Part shown: positions 14,608 through 17,251 of the stretch, piece after piece
Layout of the letters: each line of letters opens with the position of its first letter
Position numbering within the stretch: the first letter of the stretch is position 1
From: Aurantiacibacter odishensis
GTDB lineage: Bacteria > Pseudomonadota > Alphaproteobacteria > Sphingomonadales > Sphingomonadaceae
Length of the DNA stretch: 64,000 nucleotides
Reading direction: 5' to 3'
Assembly (NCBI RefSeq): GCF_003605195.1
Contig: NZ_QYOS01000019.1
Span: 62,001 to 126,000, forward strand
Made by a program: the position numbers and the translations under genes
Notes under the pieces: model-generated
Told to the model about the DNA's origin: nothing
The model's input: only the letters and a program-made list of their open reading frames with translations
The model's database searches: none

Positions 14608-14835
14608 GATTAACTATTCGCGTTAGAGGGGCACGAATCGCCTAACAAGCGCTGTGCAAGGCGTTTTCCACCAGTGTTGCGACGCATTGCCCTTAGCGTG
14701 CGATTTCGGGACGCTTCAGCCCCGGTTCACTGCGCCGGCGGCAAAAGACTGGCAACTATCAGTTATTGTCAGTGGAAATTGCCGGATCGATGCCCATTGT
14801 CTGCGGCACGGCCGTTTCGTTGGCGAAAAGGAATT

Positions 14836-15330
14836 ATGATTTCGATGACCAAGCGCTTTCTTCGCCTTGCTGCCGCCGCGGCCATCGCGGTGGGTCTTTC
14901 CGCCCCGGCGGGCGCGCAGTTCCGTAACGAGATTACCCATTCTGTCGTACCGTGCCAGGGCAATGGCCCGGCGGTGTGGATCCAGGTTTCGGGGATCGAA
15001 GGCTCGACAGGCACCATGCGCATCCAACTCTATCCCGGCACGTCTGCCGACTGGCTGGAAACGGGGCGCTGGATCAACCGGATCGAGGTGCCTGCGCGCG
15101 CAGGTTCCATGCAGGTCTGCATGCCGGTGCCGCGTCCGGGCAACTATGCCATCGCGATCCGGCACGACAAGAACAACAATGGCCGCACCGACATCACCAG
15201 CGATGGCGGGGGCATGTCGAACAACCCCAGCATCAACATCTTCAATCTCGGCAAGCCGTCGATCGACAAGACCCGCTTCTCGATCGGCCGCGAAGTGCTG
15301 CCGATGTCGATCCGGATGCGCTACCTGTAA
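14836..15330 (+). CDS. DUF2141-type exported protein (copy 1)
   Basis: This 164-residue protein has a Sec signal peptide (cleavage after GAQ or PAGA, near residue 28) and a single beta-rich domain with IQVSGIEGSTGTMRIQLYPG, then PRPGNYAIAIRHDKNNNGR and a C-terminal SIRMRYL. The PGxYAIAxxHDxNxNGK-type motif is diagnostic of DUF2141, a periplasmic or surface family of unknown role. Two in-frame ATGs exist (14836 and 14845); AAGGA at 14828-14832 is close to the first and slightly far from the second, so the start is uncertain by three codons. A paralogue lies at 38648, sharing the HDxNxNG core and the IRMRYxL ending. Confidence 0.82.
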   Translation: MISMTKRFLRLAAAAAIAVGLSAPAGAQFRNEITHSVVPCQGNGPAVWIQVSGIEGSTGTMRIQLYPGTSADWLETGRWINRIEVPARAGSMQVCMPVPRPGNYAIAIRHDKNNNGRTDITSDGGGMSNNPSINIFNLGKPSIDKTRFSIGREVLPMSIRMRYL

Positions 15331-15332
15331 GA

Positions 15333-16226
15333 CTAGTCCCGGTTTGCCCGCTTCGCCCGCCAGAGCTGAAAAGCGACGGCGGGCGCGGACAGGATCGGGT
15401 GCTTTTCCCGGAACGGCGTGACTTCGATCTTCGTGCCGGTGTGCCGCTCCACTTTCCAGGCTGCGTAGCGCGCGGCCCCGTCGAACGTGCGGGTGGCGCG
15501 TGCCAGCCTTGCCACGTTCAGCGGCTTGCCCATGCGCCGCCGCTTCTTCCACCAGCGCAGCACCTGCTCGCGCTCCGCCACGGTGATGCGCGGAGTCAGG
15601 ACCTTGCCGTCGCGGCCGTAGGGAATGCCCCCCGCGGCCAGGGCCGCTGGCAGCAGGCCATCGAAATGCGCGGCATTCAGCGTGAGGATCGAGTCCTCGC
15701 GCCCCGGCTTCTCCACGCGGAATTCGGCCCGGTAGGTGGCCTGGAACAGGGCGCGCCAGAACTGGTCTTCCGTCCCGCTGTCCGGGCCGACGGCAACGGC
15801 CAGCCGCGCCGCCGTCATCGCAGCTGCCGCGATACTGACAGCGACCTGTTCGTTCGCGTTCTCGTCCGCCTGCCACACCAGCGCGCTGGGCTGCACGAAG
15901 CGCGCCCAGATCGTGGTGTCGATGCTCTCACCGCGCGCAGCCTCGGTGAACTTGGCCAGCGTCATCGTGGCGATCTTGGCGCGCAGGGGTTCGCAGTCGT
16001 GCTCCCATTCGCGGTAGGAAACGGTCGGCCACAGGCCTTTCTCGGCCTCACCCTCTGTCAGAACGTAGAAATCGAGCACGCCCTCGCGCGAACCGGTGCG
16101 CAGGTTGGAGCCGTAGAACAGCACCGCGCGCGCATCCGCCTCGCCAGCGAGACGCGCCGCGAAGGCGGTAACGGCGGGATCGACTTCCCGCGATAGCGCC
16201 GCGCGGACGCGCGCGCGAAGGTTCAC
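15333..16226 (-). CDS. Nucleotidyltransferase-like protein, possibly Tam41-type phosphatidate cytidylyltransferase
   Basis: This is a 297-residue soluble protein. Near the N terminus VLFYGSNLRTGSREGVLDFY gives a GS...D nucleotidyltransferase signature (Gly39-Ser40, Asp52). A downstream segment, AKIATMTLAKFTEAARGESI followed by WARFVQPSALVW, resembles the region of the mitochondrial CDP-diacylglycerol synthase Tam41 that reads roughly GVIS..L..DL..W..LY.AGRL.KPV. The rest (RITVAEREQVLRWWKKRRRM) is helical and basic. Its start overlaps the stop of a diacylglycerol kinase gene (ATGA). Together these would convert diacylglycerol to phosphatidate and then to CDP-diacylglycerol, which supports the guess. 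The similarity is by eye and remote; another nucleotidyltransferase role is possible. Confidence 0.5.
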   Translation of the reverse strand: MNLRARVRAALSREVDPAVTAFAARLAGEADARAVLFYGSNLRTGSREGVLDFYVLTEGEAEKGLWPTVSYREWEHDCEPLRAKIATMTLAKFTEAARGESIDTTIWARFVQPSALVWQADENANEQVAVSIAAAAMTAARLAVAVGPDSGTEDQFWRALFQATYRAEFRVEKPGREDSILTLNAAHFDGLLPAALAAGGIPYGRDGKVLTPRITVAEREQVLRWWKKRRRMGKPLNVARLARATRTFDGAARYAAWKVERHTGTKIEVTPFREKHPILSAPAVAFQLWRAKRANRD

Positions 16227-17251
16227 GGGACCACGAACCGCAGCTTGGGCCCGGCAGAAAGGCGATACTGGCCAGCAGGGAAAGCCTCTCCGTCGAGGAT
16301 GAAGGAATCGCCGATGTCGAGGTGCACCGCCTCGTCCCCGAAAGCGTGATATCCGCGCCGCTTCGTTTCATCCGAAGCCGTGCCACGGAAAATCGAGGGC
16401 AGGCGCAGCAGCAGCCCGCGCCGCGGATTGTCCATCACCGCCAGTTGCAGCGGCGTTTCCACATCGCGGAAGGGATCGAGCCCGGCGGGGAAGGATTGCA
16501 GCGTGGAGGCGAAAAGCAGGTAACGCTCGTCCTCTGGCAGACCGCCCCGGTGCGCCAGCTCGCTGCCATCGGCCATTTGGAGGCGCATAGGCGTGCCCTG
16601 TCGCCATTTGTTGCCCGCCCGTCCGAACATCGCCTGCAACACGCTCCACACCGTGGTGACGCCCACGACCGCCTGGTTAAAAGCGCCAAGCTGGTGGCTG
16701 CGCTGGCCAAGGTTGATGACCTGGTTGAAAGCACCCCCGCCCAGCACGAAACCGCGCACCTGCGAGCGTTCGTCTCCGCGCTCGGCGACCACCAGCGGCT
16801 GCCTGCGGGCAAGCTTCCCGCGCTGCACCGCGGCCAGCGCATCGTCGAGCGACCAGTCCGTCGGCACGCCAAGATCCAGTGCCAGCGCGTTGGTCTTGCC
16901 GCCCGGCAGCACGATCAGCATGGGCCAGCTGTCGCCGAACAGCCCGGCGCCGCAAGTCAGCACGTCGCGCACCGTCCCGTCGCCGCCATCGATGGCGATG
17001 TAGTCCACCCGCTTTTCGGCAAAGTCTGTCAGCACGCCCAGCAGTTCGCTGCGGCGGCGCGGCGTTGCCAGCAGCACGCCCTCGCGCAGTTCTTCGGTTC
17101 CCGAGCGGCCTTCGTTGCGATGGCTTCGGGCGTTGCGGATCACCCCGATCAGCGGGCGCGTGCGCACGGGCGATGGCGCAGGGTCGTTCGCCGCGCGCGG
17201 ATTCGCGCCTATCTGCGGCAAGCGCTCGAAGAGATGGATGCTCTCGTGCAT
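16223..17251 (-). CDS. Diacylglycerol/sphingoid-base kinase family protein
   Basis: This 342-residue protein has the DAGK catalytic-domain signature IDGGDGTVRDVLTC (GGDGT at residues 89-93) and the second conserved loop LPGGKTNALALDLGVP. These lipid kinases phosphorylate diacylglycerol or related lipids using ATP at the inner face of the membrane. The C-terminal half forms the beta-rich domain (GLLLRLPSIFRG, LDIGDSFILDGEAFPAG, the last being the conserved xxxDGE motif). It overlaps the downstream Tam41-like gene by 4 bases. Lipid substrate specificity cannot be deduced; sphingolipid-producing sphingomonads also use related kinases. Confidence 0.85.
   Translation of the reverse strand: MHESIHLFERLPQIGANPRAANDPAPSPVRTRPLIGVIRNARSHRNEGRSGTEELREGVLLATPRRRSELLGVLTDFAEKRVDYIAIDGGDGTVRDVLTCGAGLFGDSWPMLIVLPGGKTNALALDLGVPTDWSLDDALAAVQRGKLARRQPLVVAERGDERSQVRGFVLGGGAFNQVINLGQRSHQLGAFNQAVVGVTTVWSVLQAMFGRAGNKWRQGTPMRLQMADGSELAHRGGLPEDERYLLFASTLQSFPAGLDPFRDVETPLQLAVMDNPRRGLLLRLPSIFRGTASDETKRRGYHAFGDEAVHLDIGDSFILDGEAFPAGQYRLSAGPKLRFVVP

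Follow-up and report, generated by a model that had tools for sequence, protein, structure and literature searches.

What lipid is acted upon when a lipid kinase gene is joined to a gene for a nucleotidyltransferase resembling Tam41? This question is raised by two overlapping genes in the window, the stretch of 64,000 nucleotides of Aurantiacibacter odishensis DNA analysed here. The first-pass annotation had proposed that the pair makes CDP-diacylglycerol from diacylglycerol, as a bacterial counterpart of a mitochondrial pathway. By analogy with the sphingolipid genes of Caulobacter, we instead favour, as the likely though by no means certain reading, a ceramide kinase acting with a CTP:ceramide-1-phosphate cytidylyltransferase, together a diverged member of the CpgB-CpgC module. 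The features of the locus are collected in Table 1.

Table 1. Features of the locus, numbered from the first nucleotide of the window.
Feature	Position	Strand	Assignment and basis
Lipid kinase, DAGK_cat family, 342 aa, ATG start	16223..17251	-	Proposed ceramide kinase, CpgB-like; basis PF00781, GGDG and gene order
Tam41-like nucleotidyltransferase, 297 aa, GTG start	15333..16226	-	Proposed CTP:ceramide-1-phosphate cytidylyltransferase, CpgC-like; basis fold and family sequence
Four-base overlap, GTGA	16223..16226	-	Kinase stop TGA and nucleotidyltransferase start GTG; read from the sequence
DUF2141 gene, convergent neighbour	14674..15330	+	PF09912, E 1.8e-20

The two overlapping open reading frames, a kinase followed by a 297-residue protein, lie on the minus strand exactly where they had been placed before. 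A four-base overlap was also described correctly, although its sequence is GTGA rather than the ATGA reported, because the second gene begins with GTG. In the 30 loci fetched from the A. odishensis genome and its relatives (30 of 37 match rows), the Tam41-like gene is without exception immediately preceded by the kinase gene, and in 20 of them the two overlap by four bases; the Tam41-like gene is present in 35 of 41 such genomes. A further set, the named loci, was cut to the best 80 of 590 relatives; it favours resemblance to L034, the first row of the query, and is not a fair sample. Some of these loci come from the same genomes as the unnamed ones, giving identical tree rows, and the two locus counts are not independent. 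Of these best 80 of 590, 78 have enough upstream sequence, and 74 of the 78 carry the kinase gene immediately before the Tam41-like one; in L090, one of the four without it, a kinase sits just past the distance limit. This profile count replaced a looser count by clustering on the same 80 of 590 (kinase upstream in 61 of 80, convergent serine palmitoyltransferase in 42 of 80), which was probably spoilt by the calling of ORF starts. The pairing is kept in records labelled as alpha-, gamma- and deltaproteobacteria and Nitrospirota, again within the best 80 of 590 relatives. Given this conserved adjacency across loci, the pairing is more than chance.

The claim that the second protein is Tam41-like, previously made by eye, is now backed by agreement between the predicted fold and the sequences of distant family members. 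An AlphaFold2 model, made with an alignment of 26 sequences, has a mean pLDDT of 92.0 and a pTM of 0.89, and its five best Foldseek matches in the PDB are all Tam41 (E 2e-8 to 3.8e-6; TM-scores 0.50-0.54 by query length; rmsd 4.8-8.0). In VIA, the Firmicutes Tam41 7ecd aligns with a Z of 17.1 (3.2 A over 218 residues, 12% identity) and mitochondrial Tam41 with Z of 16.1 and 15.9. These matches span 209-218 residues within residues 1-248 of the model, and residues 249-297 lie outside all three. The next family in VIA is the aminoglycoside nucleotidyltransferase ANT(4'), with a Z of 7.4 over 114 residues, and Tam41 therefore stands far above other families in this comparison (17.1 against 7.4). 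In Tam41 a mostly helical part comes after the nucleotidyltransferase domain, and as modelled the 297-residue protein has this fold.

Taken by itself, the protein matches no Pfam family, the Tam41 family PF09139 (cut-off 24 bits) included, and a search of PDB sequences gives nothing at E of 10 or below. Within its family, PF09139 is matched by 20 of 84 members at E up to 1 (best 2.6e-9, the window protein not among them), and any other Pfam family by at most two of the 84. When 20 family proteins were scanned singly, four matched PF09139, two of them over the cut-off (L101 with 37.3 bits and L051 with 29 bits). Four family profiles were compared with PDB sequences. The near-relative profile A1 (26 rows, the window protein and 25 of L002-L030) had ANT(4') as its sole match, at E 0.18. 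The broader profiles A2 (41 rows, hand-picked from those available in L001-L140) and A3 (84 rows, hand-picked from L001-L140, the window protein and 83 others) found no Tam41 and only a small nucleotidyltransferase at E 0.02. Profile A4, with 18 distant members in all (the delta/Nitrospirota branch plus L051), was alone among the four in finding Tam41, with E-values of 4.7e-6 for chain 6ig2 and 5.5e-6 for 6ig4 that are somewhat favoured by the choice of subset, which was made after the Pfam match of L051 was known and on the guess that the other matching members lay in this branch. Over 398 genomes of the phylum, PF09139 gave three weak matches at E up to 0.01 and none over its cut-off, and 0 of 14 control genomes, Caulobacter vibrioides included, had a match.

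The residues singled out by the first-pass annotation, Gly39-Ser40, Asp52 and WARFVQPSALVW (residues 107-118), are all present. In nucleotidyltransferase motifs the residue two after the motif aspartate is usually acidic. Asp52 is invariant in the 84 family sequences, and the second acidic site is occupied by a nearly invariant tyrosine, Tyr54. In the alignment of profile A4, Lys84, Arg109-Phe110, Pro113, Tyr165 and Arg170 (window numbering, transferred via the family alignments) are identical in Tam41. Of the three acidic positions of the nucleotidyltransferase fold, Tam41 itself is described as keeping just one (PMC11646218). These data bear on the idea that the protein is simply an aminoglycoside-modifying type of nucleotidyltransferase that happens to sit beside the kinase. 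ANT(4') provides both the structural matches that follow Tam41 and the single PDB sequence found with the near-relative profile, but it aligns over 114 residues against 218 for Tam41 and with a far lower Z; Tyr54 departs from the usual acidic residue; and the kinase pairing recurs across the four groups of records named above, from the best 80 of 590 relatives. We consider this idea very improbable.

The kinase matches the Pfam family DAGK_cat (PF00781) at E 4.4e-10 and carries the GGDG motif at residue 89. Both this motif and CxxxCxxC are described in PMC10331486; GGDG is common to other lipid kinases and is a weak test of likeness to CpgB, and the window kinase, with a single cysteine, lacks the CxxxCxxC of the eukaryotic ceramide kinases. 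A second DAGK_cat gene of A. odishensis (G000:C23:142894-143232) lies on the same contig outside the window. It is over the Pfam cut-off and scores 19.5 bits against the profile of the window kinase family, and its matched part is too short for inclusion in the kinase tree.

The probable lipid substrate is suggested by the association of the pair with serine palmitoyltransferase (SPT), the first sphingolipid enzyme. In 27 of the 37 loci from outside the window genus (L022-L030 and L033-L060) an SPT gene is convergent with the pair; in one it runs in the same direction, and in nine the flanks, 1.5 kb long at most, contain no SPT. SPT also adjoins the pair in 47 of the 76 named loci with enough sequence, among the best 80 of 590 relatives. 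The SPT query, taken from L030, matches serine palmitoyltransferases of the PDB with E down to 1.2e-167. Across 289 genomes of the class, where SPT was counted as present on a match at E below 1e-80 (40 genomes), 34 have both genes, none has the Tam41-like gene only, six have SPT only and 249 have neither (Fisher p 1.8e-38, a value that ignores shared ancestry). SPT without the Tam41-like gene occurs in six of the 41 genomes of A. odishensis and its relatives, and in the same set the 800-contig assembly G036 carries the Tam41-like gene but gives no match at SPT level. Within the window genus, SPT is beside the pair in none of the 21 loci L001-L021, of which L021 is cut by a contig end; in A. 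odishensis SPT (530.7 bits) is on a contig other than that of the pair.

These distributions can be weighed against the route first proposed, in which the kinase would turn diacylglycerol into phosphatidate and the Tam41-like enzyme would turn phosphatidate into CDP-diacylglycerol, bypassing CdsA. Such a route would agree with the clear fold match to Tam41, which itself takes phosphatidate (PMC11646218), with the family name of the kinase, diacylglycerol kinase, and with the separation of the pair from SPT in the window genus. Yet in the class sample the Tam41-like gene is confined to genomes with SPT (34 of 34, against 0 of the 249 without SPT), and A. odishensis already possesses one CdsA (E 1.1e-41), encoded elsewhere in its genome. 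In Caulobacter, moreover, ceramide is the substrate of the kinase (PMC10331486), and formation of ceramide phosphoglycerate requires the gene at the equivalent position (PMC11324152). We regard the route to CDP-diacylglycerol as unlikely, and less likely than one starting from ceramide. Because the genes around the pair, its co-occurrence with SPT and the published genetics of Caulobacter all point to ceramide, this is probably the lipid acted on; the proposed conversion of diacylglycerol is not supported, while the succession of a kinase and a cytidylyltransferase-type enzyme is upheld. A bacterial counterpart of the mitochondrial pathway would not be new in itself, because a bacterial Tam41 making CDP-diacylglycerol has already been described (Kimura et al. 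2022, as cited in PMC11646218).

The Caulobacter genes provide the closest precedent for a ceramide substrate. There CpgB (CC_1160) is a proven ceramide kinase that phosphorylates ceramide (PMC10331486), and mutants of CC_1161 (CpgC), a gene needed for ceramide phosphoglycerate, are reported to lack CPG and CPG2 (PMC11324152). The same source gives CC_1161 an InterPro domain suggesting a CDP-diacylglycerol synthase, assigns a CDP-alcohol domain to CC_1159 and spt to CC_1162, and suggested in 2024 an NDP-activated ceramide as a possible product of CC_1161 (PMC11324152). In papers from 2025 and 2026 the mechanism of CpgC is termed unidentified (PMC12275187, PMC13228409), and no enzyme assay of CpgC was found in the literature searched. 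Between them, the clusters scanned in L061, L066, L067, L079 and L123 contain genes for a GNAT (CerS-like) protein, a fatty-acid hydroxylase, a member of the polysaccharide-flippase family, LptF/LptG, a metallophosphoesterase and two NTP_transf_3 proteins. A CDP-alcohol transferase gene lies just upstream of the kinase in L079 and L123, and past SPT in L061 are an epimerase (CerR-like) and an AMP-binding enzyme (AasR-like). Among the 80 named loci, the best of 590 relatives, CerS-like genes occur in 52, CerR-like in 50, AasR-like in 50 and CpgA-like in 27. This content fits most of the description of CC_1168-CC_1152 in PMC11324152. By gene order and domains, the Tam41-like gene appears to stand in the place of CC_1161, and the pair would correspond to CC_1160 and CC_1161.

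A role like that of CpgC would also be compatible with chemistry that involves no lipid-CDP, in which the enzyme would add a group of the glycerate type or employ a different nucleotide, and ceramide-1-phosphate would become ceramide phosphoglycerate by another route. Attachment of glycerate to ceramide-1-phosphate by CC_1161 was earlier proposed from mass spectrometric data, as told in PMC11324152, and Caulobacter has a separate CDP-glycerate synthase, CpgD (PMC12275187). Against this, the Tam41 homologues of known activity use CTP (PMC11646218), the family retains the GS...D nucleotidyltransferase motif with one aspartate, and direct attachment of glycerate is held to be energetically not very favourable (PMC11324152). 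We judge such chemistry improbable.

Our structural and genomic data suggest a model for the ceramide route. The kinase would phosphorylate ceramide to ceramide-1-phosphate, and the Tam41-like enzyme would then move CMP from CTP onto this product, yielding CDP-ceramide, the sphingolipid counterpart of CDP-diacylglycerol. A further enzyme would couple CDP-ceramide to a polar alcohol. That the window genes keep the roles of their Caulobacter counterparts, that CTP is the donor and CDP-ceramide the product, and the nature of the final head group are all inferred. The A. odishensis genome encodes a CerS-like protein (288.2 bits); within the 20-kb stretch around its SPT gene, neither CerR nor AasR gives a match. 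CpgA and CpgD were each sought with one distant query; the best matches (E 0.001 over 79 residues and E 1.2e-8 over 65 residues, respectively) are not convincing, and because they are weak and partial no enzyme is obvious for the step that follows CDP-ceramide. For Zymomonas, a similar inference has been drawn, of CPG but no CPG2 (PMC11324152). Only two CDP-alcohol transferases were found in the A. odishensis genome. We tentatively suggest, as an idea slightly more apt to be wrong than right, that many bacteria have a CDP-ceramide route parallel to that of CDP-diacylglycerol, in which a ceramide kinase and a Tam41-type CTP:ceramide-1-phosphate cytidylyltransferase provide a common activated sphingolipid for varied head groups, and that in A. 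odishensis, with these two transferases and no convincing CpgA from that one query, one of these standard phospholipid enzymes may also accept CDP-ceramide to give sphingolipid versions of ordinary phospholipids.

The pair in the window genus appears to have a history of its own within the order. Trees of the two proteins were drawn with midpoint roots, that of the kinase covering 89 of 127 sequences. In both, the window genus falls apart from the other families of its order, together with Niveispirillum, family f33 and Nevskia/Lysobacteraceae, and is reached by a long branch. The agreement of the two trees suggests that both genes moved or diverged together, and the separate clustering fits a joint lateral transfer or a replacement of the pair. 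Because the pair of the window genus is unlinked from SPT, groups oddly and has a long branch, its substrate may have drifted. Some labels in the trees are themselves doubtful: L061, labelled Candidatus Kuenenia, is 69% identical to L034 and has alphaproteobacteria-like genes, and L083, L114 and L118, with labels from distant phyla including Marinimicrobia, fall among alphaproteobacterial tree rows. All four are probably mis-binned contigs.

In place of SPT, the Tam41-like gene of the window genus has the DUF2141 gene as its convergent neighbour, in 20 of the 20 loci L001-L020 (L021 being cut by its contig end). The true start of this gene is likely near 14845, as judged from a signal-peptide-like stretch. 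A DUF2141 gene also lies upstream of the kinase in L061 (L061:6234-6920) and, within the same order, in eight of the nine loci L022-L030. For the 80 named loci, the best of 590 relatives, the methods disagree, with 46 DUF2141 genes by clustering and 28 by profile. DUF2141 has been linked to crtG in Sphingomonadales and Qipengyuania (PMC5989583, PMC9241875). As a guess, its product might be a partner of the pair with a role in the handling of envelope sphingolipids.

In the literature searched, outside which most subscription journals lie, no mention was found of CDP-ceramide, cytidine diphosphate ceramide, CDP-activated ceramide or ceramide cytidylyltransferase. The idea of ceramide activation is itself prior (PMC11324152); the additions made here are the structural evidence for Tam41 and the finding that the gene and SPT so closely co-occur. 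If the CpgC family has the Tam41 fold, the question of how CpgC acts narrows to a single enzyme assay with CTP and ceramide-1-phosphate, and if CDP-ceramide is made, one enzyme fold would serve two parallel routes of lipid activation. The viability of Caulobacter without LPS is reported to depend partly on an anionic sphingolipid from this CpgB-CpgC pathway (PMC12275187).

The pair can be compared with known systems. The model of the window protein has the same fold as Tam41/TAMM41 (PF09139; 6ig2, 6ig4) and the Firmicutes Tam41 (7ecd), and a single conserved aspartate in the nucleotidyltransferase motif appears common to both families, whereas sequence identity is 12 to 16%, PF09139 does not detect the window protein by itself, and the lipid substrate, phosphatidate for Tam41, would here probably be ceramide-1-phosphate. 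CdsA (PF01148) would likewise form a CDP-lipid, but is an integral membrane family unrelated to the Tam41-like protein (PMC7018664). The window kinase shares its DAGK_cat domain with lipid kinases of the YegS/DgkB type, yet the YegS-type NCBIfam models match it far below their cut-offs; with CpgB it has both the kinase family and the GGDG motif in common. As described for CpgC in the CpgB-CpgC pair of Caulobacter crescentus (CC_1160-CC_1161), the Tam41-like gene of the relatives usually lies between a DAGK_cat kinase and SPT, and much of the surrounding gene content appears to be common to both sets of clusters. In contrast to CpgB-CpgC, the pair of the window genus is detached from SPT and stands beside a DUF2141 gene; it branches apart from the other members of its order; and the A. 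odishensis genome, searched with one distant query each, shows no convincing CpgA or CpgD.
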